A stretch of DNA of 64,000 nucleotides from Caulobacteraceae bacterium (GTDB lineage Bacteria > Pseudomonadota > Alphaproteobacteria > Caulobacterales > Caulobacteraceae), in the NCBI GenBank assembly GCA_028290905.1, contig JAQGIW010000110.1:1-64000 (forward strand). Reading direction: 5' to 3'. The notes beneath the pieces were generated by a model. It was not told where the DNA came from. It saw only the letters and a list, made by a program, of their open reading frames with translations, and made no database searches. The number at the start of each line of letters is the position of its first letter. The first letter of the stretch is position 1. A program made the position numbers and the translations under genes. Shown here in pieces: positions 16,085 through 52,793 of this stretch.

Positions 16085-16916
16085 GGGTGCTGTCAGTCCA
16101 ACGGCAACTCTTCTCCACTTTGGCGCAATGGGCCCAAACCCGATGAAAGTTTATCCCATGACTACGCGCCACTCGGCCAGGGCGGCGGGGCGCCTCTCCT
16201 TGTAGACTTCCCGGCTGACGAGGTGGCGCTCCTGTTGAAAATGGTTGTGGACTGAACCGTGGACGGAGGCGAATTTCTGGAGTGTTTTCATCCTCTGAAA
16301 TCGCAGCATGGCCCGCTCGCGTCGTCGAAAGGGGAGGTGGGAATTCTCGGCCCGGTTGTTCAACCAGCGCCCGGTCTCCTGAAGATCGGCGGCGCCAATC
16401 TCTTTGAGGGGGGCGCCATAGGAACGCAGCCCGTCGGTGACGATGGCACCTGTGCGACCGTGCCGTTTCATCGCCTTCTTGATGAATTTCAGGGCCGCGG
16501 CCTTGTCTCGCGTCTTCGTGACAAAGGATTCCAGCACCTCGCCCTCGTGGTCAACAGCCCGCCACAGGTAGCGCATCTCGCCGTTGATCTTCACGTAGAC
16601 CTCGTCCAGATGCCAGCGCCGGTGGGTATAGGCGCACATCTGCTGAACCCGTTTGCGGCGGATCTCGCCCGCGAACATCGGGCCGAACCGGTTCCACCAC
16701 AGCCGTACCGTCTCGTGACAAATGTCGATGCCGCGTTCGAACAGCAGGTCCTCAACATTGCGGAGCGAGAGGGGATAGCGAACGTACATCATGACGACCA
16801 GGCGGATTACCTCCGGCGAGCTGTCAAAATATCGAAACGGGTTCTTCGCCTTGGCCATCATCGTGGCTAACCCGGCGCCCGTTAGCGCGGCATGAATCGT
16901 TGGGCTGACAGAACCC
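16085..16916 (-). mobile_element. IS6-family insertion sequence (copy A)
   Basis: Imperfect terminal inverted repeats GGGTGCTGTCAGTCCAACG (left) / GGGTTCTGTCAGCCCAACG (right, reverse complement) around one transposase ORF; no 8-bp target duplication visible. Confidence 0.85.
16151..16861 (-). CDS. IS6-family transposase
   Basis: FRYFDSSPEVIRLVVMMYVRYPLSLRNVEDLLFERGID...RWHLDEVYVKINGEMRYLWRAVDHEGEVLE...NRAENSHLPFRRRERAM. Confidence 0.95.
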   Translation of the reverse strand: MMAKAKNPFRYFDSSPEVIRLVVMMYVRYPLSLRNVEDLLFERGIDICHETVRLWWNRFGPMFAGEIRRKRVQQMCAYTHRRWHLDEVYVKINGEMRYLWRAVDHEGEVLESFVTKTRDKAAALKFIKKAMKRHGRTGAIVTDGLRSYGAPLKEIGAADLQETGRWLNNRAENSHLPFRRRERAMLRFQRMKTLQKFASVHGSVHNHFQQERHLVSREVYKERRPAALAEWRVVMG

Positions 16917-33391: not shown

Positions 33392-34217
33392 GGGTGCTGG
33401 CAGTCTAACGCTAACCTATCTCCGGTTCAGGGCTTTTCGGCCCGCGAAGCGGGGGAGGGGCCGTGCAGCCCATTTCGTTCAAGCGTCACCGGTTCCCACC
33501 GGACGTGATGCGGTACGCCGTGTGGCTGTATTTCCGCTTCACGCTGTGGATCCGCGACGCCGAGGAGCTGCTCGCCGAGCGAGGGATCGACGTCAGCCGC
33601 GAGTCTGTGCGCTGCTGGGTGATCAAGTTCGGGCCCCTGATCGCGGCCAACCTGCGCCGGCGCCGCGGACCGCCCAGCCCTCGTTGGCATCTCGATGAGA
33701 TGGTGGTGAAGATCAACGGCCGGCGCATGTGGCTCTGGCGTGCGGTCGACGACGAGGGCGAGGTTCTGGACATGCTGGTCCAGAAGCGGCGCAACGCCCA
33801 TGCCGGGATGAAGCTTCTGAGGAAGCTGCTCAAGCGCCAGGGGATCCATCCCGAGACGATCACGACGGACAAACTGTCCTCGTACCGAACTGCGATGAGG
33901 AAACTCGGGCTGAAGGACCGTCACCGCCCTGGCGGTATGCGGGCGAACAACAGGGCCGAGAACAGTCACCTGCCAATCCGGCGGCGCGAACGAAAGCAGC
34001 TGAAATTCAAGAGCCAGGGATCCGCCCAGCGCTTCCTCGGCGCCCACGCCGCCATCTATAACACCTTCAACCTTCAACCCCACCTCGTTAGCCGATCGAC
34101 CCTCCGCCGGTTCAGAGCCGCGGCCCACGAGGCATGGGCCGCGGCCACCGCAGCAGCGTGACAACGGGGTGGGGGAGGGGCATCCTGCGCCCTGGCCGAG
34201 TTAAGCTGTCAGTTCCC
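33392..34217 (+). mobile_element. IS6-family insertion sequence (copy B, distinct from copy A)
   Basis: Terminal repeats GGTGCTGGCAGTCTAAC (left) / GGGAACTGACAGCTTAAC (right, reverse complement) around one transposase. Confidence 0.8.
33463..34161 (+). CDS. IS6-family transposase
   Basis: FKRHRFPPDVMRYAVWLYFRFTLWIRDAEELLAERGIDVSRESVRCW...PRWHLDEMVVKINGRRMWLWRAVDDEGEVLD...NNRAENSHLPIRRRER. Confidence 0.95.
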   Translation: MQPISFKRHRFPPDVMRYAVWLYFRFTLWIRDAEELLAERGIDVSRESVRCWVIKFGPLIAANLRRRRGPPSPRWHLDEMVVKINGRRMWLWRAVDDEGEVLDMLVQKRRNAHAGMKLLRKLLKRQGIHPETITTDKLSSYRTAMRKLGLKDRHRPGGMRANNRAENSHLPIRRRERKQLKFKSQGSAQRFLGAHAAIYNTFNLQPHLVSRSTLRRFRAAAHEAWAAATAAA

Positions 34218-34299: not shown

Positions 34300-34475
34300 A
34301 TGGCGCATCGACGCCGGACACACGAGGTGGCGCTCCCGGTTGAAGTGGTGGTGAACTGAGCCGTGAGGAGGTCCTCCACGTTGCGCAGGGACAGGGGGTA
34401 CTTCACGTACATCCTCACCACGAGGCGGATCACCTCCGGCGACGAGTTGAAGCAGCGAAACGGGTTGGTCATCCA
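34300..34475 (-). pseudogene. Internally deleted IS6-family transposase remnant
   Basis: MTNPFRCFNSSPEVIRLVVRMYVKYPLSLRNVEDLL (transposase N-term) joined near 34363-34372 to C-terminal SVHHHFNRERHLV. Confidence 0.75.
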
Positions 34476-34751: not shown

Positions 34752-37655
34752 TTAGCACTTAGGCGAAGGAAGCGAACCACAGGCGTCGAGGAGCTCTCGG
34801 GCAGCGCGCAGATCGACGGTGTCCATACCCTGGGTGAACCGTGTGTAGACCGGGGCAAGCGCGTCGTGGGCGGCGGCGCGGCGCCCCTGGTCCAGCCGCA
34901 AGCGGGCGATCGCCATGGCTGTGCGCAATCCCCAGCCCAAAGCCCCCTGTTGGCGGGCGAGAGCGAGCGACCGATCAAAGCAATCTTCGGCGGCGGCCAG
35001 GTTCGACGAACCCATCTTCGCCAGGAAGACGCCCTTGAGGCGCAGCATTTCCGGCATGTCGAAGGGCGACACGCTTTCGACATCGGACACGGCCTCGTCG
35101 ACCGTCGCCAACGCCTCGTCAAGCCGCCCGCTCATCGCCAGGCCTTCCGCAAGGGCGCCGGTGAAGAGTGGCGCAGATGGCGCGTAACGCCGCGTGCGCA
35201 TGGTTTCCACGCTACCGCGCAGGAGTGGGACAGCGGTCGTGGCGTCGCCCCGGCGGAGGGTGAGATCGCCAAGCAAGGCCTGCGCCACAGCCTGGTAGGG
35301 CGTGAGCGAATGGGTCTGCGCGTCCGAGGCCACTTGCGCAATGATCGCCTCTGCCTCGGGCAAGTTCCCGACCCAGAGGAAGACAAACGCCGCGTAAAAG
35401 CGGGCGACGCACGAGCTTACGGGATCGCCGAGGGAGTCCGCCTCGGCCACGGCATAGCGCGAGGTCTCCACGGCCTCGTCCGCATCCCCGCACGCCCACT
35501 GAGCCCAGGCCAAGGCGCCAAGTGCGCGTATCCGGGGGCTGAGGCCATGGCGCATGAAATCAGCATGCGGGTTGGCGACCGGGCGCCGCCAAGCGCTACG
35601 ACAGTGGATGACCACGCTTCTTTGATCTCCTTCTGTGTGTTGGGAGAGGCCCACCATCCATTCGGCCACCTCAAGCGCCGCCGGATCGGCCATCTTGCGG
35701 GCGACTTCGAGGGCGACGTTCGCCAGCGCGGCTGCGCCGCGATAATCGCCCGACCGATAGTGGTAAAGGTTGAGGCACCCGATCAATCGCAGCTGCTGGC
35801 CGAGCTCGCCGAGCCGTTCGGCCAGGTCCCGCGCCCGCGTGATTGCGGCGAGTGCGGCTTCGCCGTTGCCTTCGGTGAACATCAGCGACAGGCCAAGCAA
35901 GGCCTGTAGCTCCATTTCGATGCGCGGGTCGCCCGCGGCCGCGTCGTATGCGTCGAGCGCCCGTTCGGTCCAGCGGCGGCACTCCGTCAGAAGGGACATG
36001 TCAATAAATAGAGGCGCGGCAGCCGCCGCCAGGGCCGTTCCAACTCCGACGTCGCCCTCGTCCGAGAAGCTCCATTCCAGCGCCGAGCGGATATTGCCGA
36101 GGTGCTCGCCGTAGGCGGTGAACCCGCGCGACTGGGAGAGCGGCTCGGCCTCGGAGCCGATCTGGCCGAGGAAGTCGCGGAAGAACTCGGCATGACGCCG
36201 GGCCGCCATCGTGATTTCACGGGGATCGGCCAGCTTTCCGCGCAAATAGGCGCAGGTCGTGTCCAGCAGTCGGTAACGGCGCTTGCCGTGGTGTGGGTCG
36301 GACATGACCAGAGACTTGGCGACCAGGCTTGCGATGACCTCGATGACCTGGTCGCCGTCAACCTGATCGTCCTGGGCGACAGCCTGGGCGGCCTCCAGCG
36401 CGAAGGCCCCGGTGAGGACGGCCAGCCGCCGCAAGATCGTCCGCTCGAGGTCGGTGAGCAGGTCGAAGCTCCAGTCGAGCGCCGCGTTCAGCGTCTGATG
36501 GCGGGGCAGGGCGGTGCGCCGCCCTTGCCATAGCAGGCTCAGTCGGCTGTCCAGCAGGGCCTCGACCCCCACCACACCGTGGGCGTCAACCCGGCCGGCG
36601 GCCAGTTCGATGGCAAGGGCGATCCCGTCGAGCTTGCGGCAGATGCGCGCCACCGCCGGCGCGTCGGCGTCCAGCAGGGCGAAACGGTCCGAGTCGGCTG
36701 ACGCCCGGTCGGCAAATAGCTGCACGGCCGAAAATCTCAGGGACTCGGCCGCCGTCAGCGCGTCGCTCACCGGCGGGCAGTCCAGCGGCGCCAGCCGATG
36801 CACGTGCTCGCCGTCGATCCGCAGGACTTCGCGGCTCGTCGCCAGGATGTGAACCTCGCCCGCCTGCTCGAAAATCGCCTCGGCCAGCCCCGACACCGTC
36901 TCGATGACATGCTCGCAGCTGTCCAGGATCAGCAGCATCCGCTTGCCGCGCAGGAAGGCGAGCAATCTCGGCAACAGGTCGTCGGAGTTGACGACGACGC
37001 CCAGCGCCGCCGCCAGCGCGCTCGCCGCCAGACCCGGGTCGCTCAGGGACCCCAGATCGGCAAAGCAGACGCTTCCATAGTCCGCGGCATACGCATGGCC
37101 GACCGAGACGGCGACGGTCGTCTTGCCGATGCCGCTGGGGCCGACGATGGTCACGAAGCGCCGGCTCGCCAGCAGCGCGGCGATGGCCGCCACCTCGACG
37201 TCGCGGCCCACCACGCGCCTGAGCCGCGGCGGAATGGTGCGCGTCATGAGGGCCGACCCGGCCTCCGGTGGGCTCTGGGGAGGCAAGGGCCGCGCCATCG
37301 GACGCACGAAGCAATAGCCGCGGCCCGGGACGTTTGTGATGTAGCGCGCGCCGTCGACACCGTCGCCAAGCGCCTTGCGCAGCGCGGTGACGTGGAACCG
37401 GAGGCGTGCGTAGTCGACGAACGTCCGCGGCCAGATCTGATCGGCGAGTTCCTGATTGCTGAGGACTTCGCCCGGACGAGCGGTCAGGGCCACAAGCAAG
37501 TCCAGAGCCCGTCCTCCCAGCGGTACGACGGCGCCGTCTCGCTCCAACAGCCGTTCACCGAGCCGAATTCGGAACGGCCCGAATGCCCTGACCTCGTCGC
37601 CCGCCGGATGATCTGTCATCTTGATACTCGTGTTGCGCGGGCCCTGATTCCGCAT
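34752..37655 (-). CDS. Winged-helix (OmpR-type) DNA-binding / large NTPase-TPR transcriptional regulator, paralog 1
   Basis: 967 aa; N-term wHTH RALDLLVALTARPGEVLSNQELADQIWP...RYITNVPGRGYCF, P-loop VGPSGIGKTTV, ILDSCEHV, C-term repeats. Confidence 0.93.
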   Translation of the reverse strand: MRNQGPRNTSIKMTDHPAGDEVRAFGPFRIRLGERLLERDGAVVPLGGRALDLLVALTARPGEVLSNQELADQIWPRTFVDYARLRFHVTALRKALGDGVDGARYITNVPGRGYCFVRPMARPLPPQSPPEAGSALMTRTIPPRLRRVVGRDVEVAAIAALLASRRFVTIVGPSGIGKTTVAVSVGHAYAADYGSVCFADLGSLSDPGLAASALAAALGVVVNSDDLLPRLLAFLRGKRMLLILDSCEHVIETVSGLAEAIFEQAGEVHILATSREVLRIDGEHVHRLAPLDCPPVSDALTAAESLRFSAVQLFADRASADSDRFALLDADAPAVARICRKLDGIALAIELAAGRVDAHGVVGVEALLDSRLSLLWQGRRTALPRHQTLNAALDWSFDLLTDLERTILRRLAVLTGAFALEAAQAVAQDDQVDGDQVIEVIASLVAKSLVMSDPHHGKRRYRLLDTTCAYLRGKLADPREITMAARRHAEFFRDFLGQIGSEAEPLSQSRGFTAYGEHLGNIRSALEWSFSDEGDVGVGTALAAAAAPLFIDMSLLTECRRWTERALDAYDAAAGDPRIEMELQALLGLSLMFTEGNGEAALAAITRARDLAERLGELGQQLRLIGCLNLYHYRSGDYRGAAALANVALEVARKMADPAALEVAEWMVGLSQHTEGDQRSVVIHCRSAWRRPVANPHADFMRHGLSPRIRALGALAWAQWACGDADEAVETSRYAVAEADSLGDPVSSCVARFYAAFVFLWVGNLPEAEAIIAQVASDAQTHSLTPYQAVAQALLGDLTLRRGDATTAVPLLRGSVETMRTRRYAPSAPLFTGALAEGLAMSGRLDEALATVDEAVSDVESVSPFDMPEMLRLKGVFLAKMGSSNLAAAEDCFDRSLALARQQGALGWGLRTAMAIARLRLDQGRRAAAHDALAPVYTRFTQGMDTVDLRAARELLDACGSLPSPKC

Positions 37656-37913
37656 CAGAGCCCGACCTGGACGAACGTCATCAGTCGCGCCCGTTCGCCC
37701 GCGTCGTCGGTTAGCTCACCGAGCTCGTACGAGCGCAGGATCTTGGACCGGATCTCCTCGGCGTTGGCCAGGGTCTTCAGGCCCAGCACGTGGGCGGCGA
37801 ACCCGTCGTGGCCGAAGTAGCTCGGGCGCACGCCCCTGGCGAGGATCAGGTAATCGAAGTCGATGGCGACCGCCCTGCCTTCCGCGCTGGAGAGTCCCAG
37901 CAAGCGGGCCGCC
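37656..37913 (-). pseudogene. Type II NADH dehydrogenase (FAD oxidoreductase) internal fragment
   Basis: VAIDFDYLILARGVRPSYFGHDGFAAHVLGLKTLANAEEIRSKILRSYELGELTDDAGERARLMTFVQVGL, lacking both ends. Confidence 0.75.
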
Positions 37914-40727
37914 TCACAGCTCGCCCAGGAGGCGCCTGGCCTCTGAAATATCGCCGCACTCGCAACTGGATCTGAACTGGTCGAGCGTGGCGGAGAGCAG
38001 AGCGCGGGCCTCGTCCCAGCGCCCGAGGTTGCGCAGGAACTGGGCATAGCTCGTAGCGGTTCGGAGTTCCCAGAAGAGGGCGCCGTCCGAACGGGCGATG
38101 CCGAGCGCGGAAGAGAAGACTTGCTGGGCCTGAGATACTGAGCCTGGGCCCTGGAGAGCAAAGAGCTCGGCCTTGACGCGCAGCAATTCCGCCAGAAACA
38201 GGTAGCGGCTGTTCGGCCACGTATCCTCGAATACCTTGATCGCCGCGAGACCACGGTCCGCGTGGCCCGCGAGTCCAAGCGACATCGCCAGGCCTCCAAT
38301 GAAATAGGGACGGAAGGTGCCGATCCCTGCGCTTATGATGCCATCCAGCGCGCCTTCAAAGAGGCTTGCCGCGGTCTCGGCGTCGCCCCGCCGCAACGCC
38401 AGCGCGGCGCTCAATCCCTTGGCCAATCCAATGAACTCCGAGGCCCTGAACTTCTCCCCCCTGCTCATCAGGTCTCCCACGATGGGTTCGATCTCGGCCG
38501 CGGGTCGCCCGGCCCAAAGTCGCACGTAGCCGTCACGCGCGATCGCGATGTTCAGCGGAATTGGATATCCGGTCGCCTCGGCTTCCAGGAGGGTTTCGGC
38601 GGCCAGGTGAAGCGCTTCGTCGGGAAAGCCGCTCTGCCAGAGCGAAAAAGTCAGCAGGTTCCGGGCGTCGATGCGCCTGCAAAATCCATACCGGGCGAGG
38701 TACGCCTTACTGGCCTCGGGCCGGTCGATTTCCAGGGACCGGATGAGGCAGGTGTGGGCTTCGGCGACCGACCCCATGCAGGTCAGTGTGTTGCCCAGCA
38801 TGTAGCTGGCCAGCGCCAGCGCCGAGGGCGTGGCCAGGGCCATCGCCAATCCATTGTAGCGGCGGCAATGTTTCAGAGCTTCCGCGATGTTGGGGTGGCG
38901 CACCTCATGCGCCCACATGAACATGACGGCCTCCGCTTCCAGCTCCGGCTGGTCCAGCTTGCGCGCCACGGCCGCCGTTTCCTCCCAGTTGGCGTAGACC
39001 TCCGCCGTCATGCCGCGCGTGAACATCACCGCCATGGCGCGAGTGGCGCGAATGACCAGCTCCTGACTGGTCGCGGGAGCGCCGGCCCCGATCGCCGCCA
39101 GCCCCTTGACCATCCAGTCGCGACATTCCGCGAGCAGTGACATGGCTGTCCAAAGCGGCGCGGACGCGGCGACGAGGTCCACCGCCAGCGATTTGTCGCC
39201 TCTGGCTGACAACGCCCAGTTGAGCGCGGCTCGAATATCGTCGATTTCTCCTCGAATCGCCAAAGGATTGTTTTGCGCCTTCGGATCCGGATTGCAGAAC
39301 CGTCTAAGCAATTGTAAGAAATACAGGGCGTGGGACCGCCGGATGAGGTCCACCTCCGCGTCTTCGTCGAGGCGCTCGACCGCGAAAGCGCGGGTGGTCT
39401 CCAGCAGGCGAAATCGAGACTCGGCGTCGCCCGTGTCCGCAGAGATCAAGGACTTTGAAGCCAGCTCGAACACGTCGTCGGCGACGTCGCGCCCGGCGAC
39501 CGCGTTAGCGGCTTCCAGCGTGAAGGGTCCGGCGAAGGCGGCCAGGAGTCTCAATGTGCTCTTCTCCCCCTCGCTGAGCAGTCGATAGCTCCAGTCGAGC
39601 ACCGCGCCCAGGGTCCGGTGCCTGGGGTCCGCCGTGCGGCGCCCGGCGGCGCGCAACGGGAGGCGCTCGTCCAGCAGCGCCGCGAGACCTAGGACGCCAA
39701 AGGCGTCGATGCGCGCTGCCGCGAACTCGATAGCCAGCGGAAGACCGTCTAATTTGCGGCAGATGGCGCCGGCGCTCATGGCGTCGGCGTCATCGAGGAC
39801 GAAGGTGTCCAGGCTCGCCGCCGCCCGCTCGACAAATAGCTCAATGGCGGGATAAGCCAGGGCCTCGGCGGTGGTCAGAGGGACGGACGGGGGCGGACCC
39901 GGGAGCGGCGCCAGGCGGTGCACATGCTCGCCCTCCACGCGCAGCGGTTCCCGGCTCGTCGCCAGGATCCTGATGCCATCAGAAGCGCTGAGGATCGCCG
40001 AGGCGAGGGCGACCGCGGCCTCGATGACGTGCTCACAGTTGTCGAACACCAGCAGCATGTACCGCTCGCGAAGCGCCTCGGCCAGGGCCGAGACGGGCGC
40101 GTCGGACTTCACCTCCAGTTTGAGCACCGACGCCATGGCGCTCGGTACGAGTTCGGGGTCGGCGACACGGGCCAGGTCGATCAACCACACTCCATGCTCA
40201 TAGGAGGAGATCAGTTCCTCGGCAACCTTCAGGGCGACGGCCGTCTTGCCAATTCCGCCCGGCCCCACCAACGCGAGCAATCGATGTTCTGTTAACTGAC
40301 GAACGAGATCGGCGACCACTCCGCTCCGGCCGATCAGTCGAGTCAGCTTGGCCGGAAGGTTGTGCGGGCCATGGGGAGGCAAGGGCCGCGCCATCGGACT
40401 CACGAAGCAATAGCCACGGCCGGGGACGTTTGTGATGTAACGCGCGCCATCGACACCGTCGCCAAGCGCCTTGCGCAGCGTGGTGACGTGGAACCGGAGG
40501 CGTGCGTAGTCGACGAACATCTGCGGCCAGACCTGATCGGCGAGTTCCTGATTGCTGAGGACCTCGCCCGGACGGGCGGTCAGGGCCAGCAAAAGGTCGA
40601 GCGCGCGCCCGCCCAGCGAAACGACGGCGCCGTCACGCTCCAACAGACGTTCACTGAGACGAAGCCGGAACGGCCCGAATAGCCTCACCTCGTCGCGCGC
40701 CGGGAGATCCATCGTCGTCAAACTCAT
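37914..40727 (-). CDS. Winged-helix (OmpR-type) DNA-binding / large NTPase-TPR transcriptional regulator, paralog 2
   Basis: 937 aa; same wHTH as paralog 1, P-loop VGPGGIGKTAV, FDNCEHVIEA, TPR-like C-term. Confidence 0.93.
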   Translation of the reverse strand: MSLTTMDLPARDEVRLFGPFRLRLSERLLERDGAVVSLGGRALDLLLALTARPGEVLSNQELADQVWPQMFVDYARLRFHVTTLRKALGDGVDGARYITNVPGRGYCFVSPMARPLPPHGPHNLPAKLTRLIGRSGVVADLVRQLTEHRLLALVGPGGIGKTAVALKVAEELISSYEHGVWLIDLARVADPELVPSAMASVLKLEVKSDAPVSALAEALRERYMLLVFDNCEHVIEAAVALASAILSASDGIRILATSREPLRVEGEHVHRLAPLPGPPPSVPLTTAEALAYPAIELFVERAAASLDTFVLDDADAMSAGAICRKLDGLPLAIEFAAARIDAFGVLGLAALLDERLPLRAAGRRTADPRHRTLGAVLDWSYRLLSEGEKSTLRLLAAFAGPFTLEAANAVAGRDVADDVFELASKSLISADTGDAESRFRLLETTRAFAVERLDEDAEVDLIRRSHALYFLQLLRRFCNPDPKAQNNPLAIRGEIDDIRAALNWALSARGDKSLAVDLVAASAPLWTAMSLLAECRDWMVKGLAAIGAGAPATSQELVIRATRAMAVMFTRGMTAEVYANWEETAAVARKLDQPELEAEAVMFMWAHEVRHPNIAEALKHCRRYNGLAMALATPSALALASYMLGNTLTCMGSVAEAHTCLIRSLEIDRPEASKAYLARYGFCRRIDARNLLTFSLWQSGFPDEALHLAAETLLEAEATGYPIPLNIAIARDGYVRLWAGRPAAEIEPIVGDLMSRGEKFRASEFIGLAKGLSAALALRRGDAETAASLFEGALDGIISAGIGTFRPYFIGGLAMSLGLAGHADRGLAAIKVFEDTWPNSRYLFLAELLRVKAELFALQGPGSVSQAQQVFSSALGIARSDGALFWELRTATSYAQFLRNLGRWDEARALLSATLDQFRSSCECGDISEARRLLGEL

Positions 40728-40804
40728 GTCGACCGGCGCGCCGCAGTCCCGGGCGGATTGGATCGCCCAGCGCGTCCCATGGGGAGCTAAGATTCCCTAG
40801 GGTA

Positions 40805-40824
40805 TCTCGCCTCGAAAGGCGAGA
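40805..40824. promoter_or_regulatory. Perfect hairpin in regulator/hydrolase divergent region
   Basis: TCTCGCCT-CGAA-AGGCGAGA. Confidence 0.5.
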
Positions 40825-41045
40825 CTCGTCCCGGTCGGTCCGCGTGGTCGGCGCTCTCTGAGTTCTTGGCCGAGGCTTGAAACTTTCAGCCGTCAGAAAC
40901 GGGACGAATCTTCAAGCGTCACCGCTGACACCCTGCGCTTGATGAGCCGTGACATCAGGACAGGACGACCCGATCATGAAGACGCCGCGCAATGGAGATC
41001 GGCCGAAGCGCTTTCGCCCGGCAGCATCGACCTAAGGAGACAGAA

Positions 41046-42011
41046 ATGATCCCGTCCCCTCACCAGGCTTCCCGTCGGAACATCATGACCGCGAGCCTGG
41101 GGCTCGCCGCCGCGGCCTCGCTGCAGGTCGCCCCTTCAGCGCAGGCCGCTTCGCAGTCCTCGTCAGGAGCCAAGACCATGAGTAGCAGCACCATCACCAC
41201 CAAGGACGGCACGCAGATTTTCTACAAGGACTGGGGGACGGGTCAGCCGATCATCTTCCATCACGGCTGGCCGCTGAGCGCCGACGACTGGGACGCCCAG
41301 ATGCTGTTCTTCCTGGGCCAAGGCTACCGGGTCATCGCCCACGACCGTCGCGGCCACGGTCGTTCGAGCCAGACGGCGACCGGGAACGATATGGACACCT
41401 ACGCCGCCGACGTCGACGCGCTCGCCGCCCACCTCAACCTGAAGAACGGTATCCACGTCGGCCACTCGACTGGCGGCGGTGAAGTCGCGCGGTATGTGGC
41501 GCAGTACGGCGGCGCCGACCGGGTCTCCAAGGCCGTGCTGATCGGCGCGGTGCCGCCGATCATGCTGAAGACGGAGGCCAATCCGGGCGGCCTGTCGATG
41601 GAGGTCTTCGACGGCTTCCGCGCCGCCCTGGCCGCCAACCGCGCCCAGTTCTTCCGCGATGGCCCCGCCGGTCCGTTCTACGGCTTCAATCGTGTGGGCG
41701 CGAAGGTGTCACAAGGGGTCATCGACAACTGGTGGCGCCAGGGGATGATGGGCGGCGCCCAGGCTCACTACGAGTGCATCATGGCCTTCTCGGAGACCGA
41801 CTTTCCCGAGGACCTCAGGAGGATCGAGGCGCCGGTGCTGGTCATGCACGGCGACGACGACCAGATCGTGCCGATTGCGGATGCGGCCCTGCTGTCGATC
41901 AAGCTGCTCAAGAACGGGGAGCTGAAGGTCTACCCAGGCTTCCCGCACGGCATGGCCACGACCCACGCCGACGTGATCAACAAGGACCTGCTGGCCTTCT
42001 TCAAGGCCTAG
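41046..42011 (+). CDS. Exported (Tat-type) alpha/beta hydrolase, non-heme chloroperoxidase-like
   Basis: [26 protein letters not shown] leader; [45 protein letters not shown]. Confidence 0.9.
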
Positions 42012-52665: not shown

Positions 52666-52793
52666 TGAAGCCTCCCTCGTTCGCTTGGACGTCCGCGAGG
52701 GCGCCGGTGAAGAGTGGCGCAGATGGCGCGTAACGCACCCGAGACCAGGGCGCCGGAGCAGCAGGCCGCCATCTATTGACCGCGCTTTGCCCC

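Follow-up and report, generated by a model that had tools for sequence, protein, structure and literature searches.

Evidence for exchange of the DNA-binding head between neighbouring STAND-type regulators with different sensors in a Caulobacteraceae bacterium

Two large regulator genes lying side by side in a Caulobacteraceae bacterium code for proteins that are very similar in the domain that reads DNA and only distantly related in the rest, which raises the question of how this came about and whether it has regulatory meaning. A sequence-only reading of the locus had proposed that the DNA-binding module was swapped or underwent gene conversion. We have followed this up in the window (the whole 64,000-nucleotide stretch that was analyzed, 64 kb of contig JAQGIW010000110.1), in the source genome (G000, 5.23 Mb, a fragmented assembly of 317 contigs) and in other genomes. 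The two genes, designated here A and B, are the following:

34752..37655, minus strand: gene A, an intact ORF of 967 aa with a winged helix-turn-helix (wHTH, aa ~20-118), a STAND NTPase and a TPR sensor.
37914..40727, minus strand: gene B, an intact ORF of 937 aa with a wHTH, a STAND NTPase and a TPR sensor.

The two proteins are paralogous transcription regulators of the STAND type, in which an OmpR/CadC-type winged helix is combined with an NTPase acting as a nucleotide switch and a TPR sensor. In Pfam searches the OmpR-type wHTH (PF00486) was found at the N-terminus of A and B with 56.1 and 55.3 bits (cut-off 26.2), the NTPase passed the cut-off as NB-ARC in B and as AAA_22 in A, and TPR_12 was above the cut-off in both. 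The P-loop GxGxxGKT was invariant in the alignment of wHTH-STAND-TPR regulators, which are widespread in rhizobia and their relatives. In the AlphaFold model of B (pLDDT 90) the C-terminal region consists of helical repeats, the gap between wHTH and NTPase is of ~15 residues, and the fold matches STAND structures in the PDB (6mfv, Apaf-1, CED-4 and MalT, 8bob), while the closest solved relative of the head is CadC (5ju7, E 5e-11). The start of gene A is more likely at codon 13 (ATG at 37619), since the homology between A and B centres there. A reading of A and B as a defence system was rejected, as PADLOC gave no match for either of them and only weak ones for C287a and C287b, a second pair of the same genome described below.

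With MalT and the LAL activators, A and B share a STAND NTPase and a TPR-like sensor that control a DNA-binding domain. MalT carries a LuxR-type HTH at its C-terminus, whereas the DNA-binding domain of A and B is N-terminal and of the OmpR/CadC type, and no Pfam match to a C-terminal LuxR-type HTH was found in either protein. The head resembles the wHTH regulators of the CadC, HilA and ToxR type, among which its closest solved relatives are found; to our knowledge these families have no STAND NTPase. The overall order of domains (OmpR-type winged helix, STAND/NOD NTPase, TPR sensor) is that of AfsR, the large SARP of Streptomyces. According to the part of the literature consulted (PMC10936776), the DNA-binding part of AfsR is modulated by its NOD and TPR domains, and the presumption for STAND proteins is that they stay inactive until an inducer binds. 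Unlike the SARPs, A and B are proteobacterial, pass through a short linker straight to the NTPase and have no Pfam match to the BTA domain that defines SARPs.

At the nucleotide level A and B are related by a single blastn block that runs from the start codon of B to just past the RPLPP linker:

37270..37633, minus strand: homogenised wHTH tract in A, 87.9% nucleotide identity over 364 nt to the tract in B, with the breakpoint at A aa ~136.
40366..40729, minus strand: homogenised wHTH tract in B, partner of the tract in A in the same blastn block.

The block is slightly wider than the close matches that had been noticed by eye around 37290-37580 and 40380-40670. The estimate of ~90% identity between the wHTHs and the sharp drop past RPLPP, also made by eye, agree with the codon alignment, in which amino-acid identity was 88-90% in the wHTH, 49% in the NTPase and 27% in the C-terminal (TPR) half, i.e., far from even along the length. 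Third-codon-position identity followed the same course (~80-81, 47 and 37-38%), and the dS values (NG86) were 0.27-0.30 in the head, ~0.97 in the NTPase and 1.4-1.5 in the C-terminal half, the last being near saturation. Because synonymous divergence climbs from the head to the NTPase and to the TPR, these values point to an event at the DNA level, beyond protein conservation. The best-matching segment was equalled in 0 of 2000 permutations, both with nucleotides and with third positions. Within the tract dN/dS was ~0.2 and third-position identity was uneven, with 11-13 matches of 20 near A codons 29-60 rising to 18-20 of 20 near codons 59-100, which suggests that the exchange probably took place more than once.

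We compared these values with the family at large (122 members, 7,212 between-locus pairs). Among the between-locus pairs with an NTPase identity below 55%, head identity reached a maximum of 73%, versus 90% for A/B and 91% for C287a/b, and none of the 7,212 was comparable to A/B. Other heads of the family are typically 40-65% identical, so that a wHTH always conserved at ~90% is not what the family shows. The source genome has about eleven relatives of A and B, and the heads of its paralogs are 38-63% identical when A/B, C287a/b and the subgroup C251b/C15a/C15b are left out. In three paralogs of this genome (L036 311-3250, L036 12859-15306 and L035 10482-13469) identity declines from 5' to 3', with third positions ~80% identical in the heads and ~35% in the C-terminal half for C15b.

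The comparison that separates the history of the heads from that of the bodies came from the second tandem pair of this genome:

Contig C287, locus L033, 4207-7080 and 7178-10090: tandem pair C287a/C287b.

C287a and C287b are 83-91% identical in the head, 46% in the NTPase and 36% in the C-terminal half. C287b is close to A in the NTPase (71%) and the C-terminal half (65%), but their heads are just 55-62% identical. In maximum-likelihood trees of 36 members, the bodies of A and C287b grouped with full support, and C287a and B were placed elsewhere; the AU test, with figures from a quick tree in the case of the bodies, rejected A+B (1.3e-57) and C287a+b (2e-64). The head tree paired the genes by locus (A+B 100/100, C287a+b 98/91), and here A+C287b was rejected (AU, 7.5e-5). 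Actually, at the sites of A that are informative between B and C287b, 87% are B-like up to A aa ~136, in the linker, and 23% thereafter; the Fisher p at this switch point (1.8e-44) is optimistic because the breakpoint was picked as the best fit. The borders of the tracts coincide with the domain linker at both loci. The head of C287a is 65% identical to heads of the A clade versus 51% to those of its own body clade, suggesting that C287b was probably the donor to C287a. A segmental duplication of an A/B pair was rejected, since the order differs (B-A and C287b-C287a) and the bodies of B and C287a are not sisters. The locus of C287 also carries an acetoacetate decarboxylase gene, found as well near members of the family in Bradyrhizobium and Sinorhizobium, and an AraC-type regulator that is 72% identical, over the matched part, to the one of the 64-kb window.

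A local drop of synonymous divergence with defined borders, and discordant trees on either side of them, are the hallmarks of gene conversion, and both are found in A/B. At the level of sequence comparison, these data show that a wHTH block of ~360 nt was copied between the neighbours A and B long after their bodies had diverged, by ectopic gene conversion or by a domain-transfer recombination ending in the linker, and that similar copying between neighbours also occurred at C287a/b and in other genomes. The exchange first proposed for this locus is thus strongly supported by the AU tree conflict, the sharp breakpoint, a dS that is low in the tract only and the further instances, and we consider the homogenised head to be the product of a real and well supported DNA-level exchange.

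The instances in other genomes described here come from Bradyrhizobium. An orthologous tandem pair was found in two genomes, CSA207 (L095, G638) and G539 (L129, L140). In the sensor half of gene 1, third-position identity is 80% between species versus 46-49% between paralogs; the heads are 86 and 79% identical within genomes versus 77 and 66% between the matching genes, a modest difference over ~100 codons. Two species with orthologous pairs show, as judged from these identities, homogenisation of the heads within each genome. Two paralogs of G546, separated by 2.2 kb, have third positions 99% identical across head and NTPase, nucleotide identities of 0.5-0.8 in the middle of the TPR and ~0.9 again at the very C-terminus; a plasmid trio of Bradyrhizobium sp. 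Ash2021 has a similar, milder profile. Bradyrhizobium paralogs with this constant-variable-constant profile, in which head and NTPase are near-identical, the middle of the TPR diverges and the C-terminus is similar once more, are located at L130 (2328-5228, 7420-10311), L131 (2386-5298) and L121 (5921-14874). The extent of the copied block differs, reaching through the NTPase in the G546 pair and covering the head alone in A/B. By our threshold, homogenisation was present in 5 of the 27 pairs lying co-directionally within 5 kb and in none of 15 inverted pairs, a difference that amounts to no more than a trend (Fisher p 0.14). Homogenisation is a minority event among the tandem pairs of this family, and the many pairs without it indicate that adjacency alone is not the cause and that shared targets are not universal. 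In Pseudomonas (L059, L062, L067, L068, L072, L074, L076, L077, L093 and L094) a full-length and a short (~490 aa) member are arranged convergently with overlapping 3' ends.

What the shared head could act on is suggested by the region upstream of B:

40728..40991, no strand: intergenic region separating the divergent B and hydrolase genes, by its position the likeliest place for a shared operator, with weak inverted repeats only.
40992..42011, plus strand: alpha/beta hydrolase (Pfam Abhydrolase), divergent from B, a probable target.

Near family members, homologues of the hydrolase recur in loci of three proteobacterial classes (alpha, beta and gamma), and in Pseudomonas they are often divergent. 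A and B have an identical wing and a recognition helix identical but for A Ala91/B Thr83, which from our alignment we take to be a DNA-contacting position in PhoB, so that identical specificity is likely, not certain. The recognition helices of C287a and C287b are alike and differ from those of A/B, as would be expected for locus-specific operators. It is plausible that the two proteins use common operators, for which their sensors might then compete as first suggested, and the region 40728-40991 is the most likely place for a candidate site, although sequence scans gave no convincing operator and the best inverted repeat was not enriched genome-wide over the control pattern.

Our preferred reading, to which we give a probability of about 0.72, is that exchange between neighbours homogenised the head and that selection keeps both heads on one nearby promoter where two signals converge. 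For neighbours in direct repeat, the most conserved segment would be the easiest place to recombine, and selection (tract dN/dS ~0.2) would hold the heads of A and B alike because both act at one nearby promoter, most likely that of the B/hydrolase divergent region. Extending AfsR-type control to A and B, we infer that the ADP state would keep each protein inactive until its own inducer opened it through the TPR domain; the opened proteins would bind shared sites as homo- or hetero-oligomers, and two different signals would thereby converge on one target. The regulatory consequence of the homogenised head is thus put forward as a hypothesis. It is possible, if rather less probable, that the transfer was real and without regulatory meaning, the conversion being due to the similarity of tandem genes and A and B controlling different genes. 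The low fraction of co-directional neighbours that pass the threshold, the inclusion of the NTPase in the copied block elsewhere (the head is not always the unit) and the outcome of the operator scans would fit this reading; the low dN/dS with both reading frames intact, borders that fall at the domain linker at two loci and a recognition helix and wing nearly the same within each locus argue against it.

The surroundings of the two genes bear on whether the exchange was a single event:

37661..37903, minus strand: gene fragment in the spacer from B to A, 81 codons with no stop, both ends truncated, same direction as A and B.
33463-34161: IS6/IS240-type transposase, just downstream of A.

The fragment fills nearly the whole spacer and is 57-60% identical to an intact frame of 480 aa that lies on contig C288. 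Judged by eye, it seems to come from the interior of a gene for an NAD(P)/FAD oxidoreductase of the NDH-2 type, although family searches gave no name for it, and it is a rearrangement scar. A scan of the A-B spacer gave no promoter-like site. At E <= 1e-150 none of 59 relatives gave a match to B, with short matches only at the DNA level, which suggests that the A/B locus is probably a lineage-specific gain. Short repeats link the locus to distant parts of the window (35135-35190 with 52681-52736, 91% over 56 nt; 34366-34466 with 16743-16843, 76% over 101 nt). The spacer fragment and the transposase, as scars of recombination, together with the absence of matches in the 59 relatives, are what would be left by a one-off fusion, in which assembly of the locus brought a foreign body together with a copied 5' end of the partner gene and no conversion followed. 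We regard this as unlikely, given the uneven third-position identity inside the tract, the same outcome reached by A/B and C287a/b in opposite gene order and the recurrent homogenisation in Bradyrhizobium. Finally, strong purifying selection acting on the wHTH alone, with no transfer, is hardly credible and we count it as refuted: conservation across the family is usually a little higher in the wHTH than in the NTPase (median difference ~7 points), but the step is also present in third positions and dS, C287b, sister of A by its body, has a much more different head, head and body trees conflict, and the family-wide comparison rejects plain conservation as well.

The building blocks of A and B are known, and what appears new, relative to the open-access literature, is an exchange limited to the head between STAND regulators that lie side by side and differ in their sensors; term searches of open-access papers gave no account of it, and the part of PMC10936776 consulted does not describe exchange of heads between neighbours for AfsR-type SARPs. 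Exchange between paralogs has been reported for STAND families of eukaryotes, such as the NLR clusters of zebrafish (PMC4852459, as far as consulted). A and B differ from these in being transcription regulators of a bacterium in which homogenisation has affected the DNA-binding output domain. One might tentatively extend exchange between neighbours to clustered bacterial NLR-like regulators in general, as arrays of constant output and variable sensors in which recurrent conversion would keep the head (sometimes with the NTPase) alike while the TPRs differ, several sensors would serve each promoter and the head would co-evolve with locus-specific operators, a generalization that we consider doubtful. 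For A and B themselves, a nearly identical head on very different sensor halves means that a single target gene may respond to two signals. If true, this would offer a natural example, open to testing, of the way in which bacteria can connect a new signal to a regulatory target they already have, by copying the DNA-reading head onto a different sensor next door.
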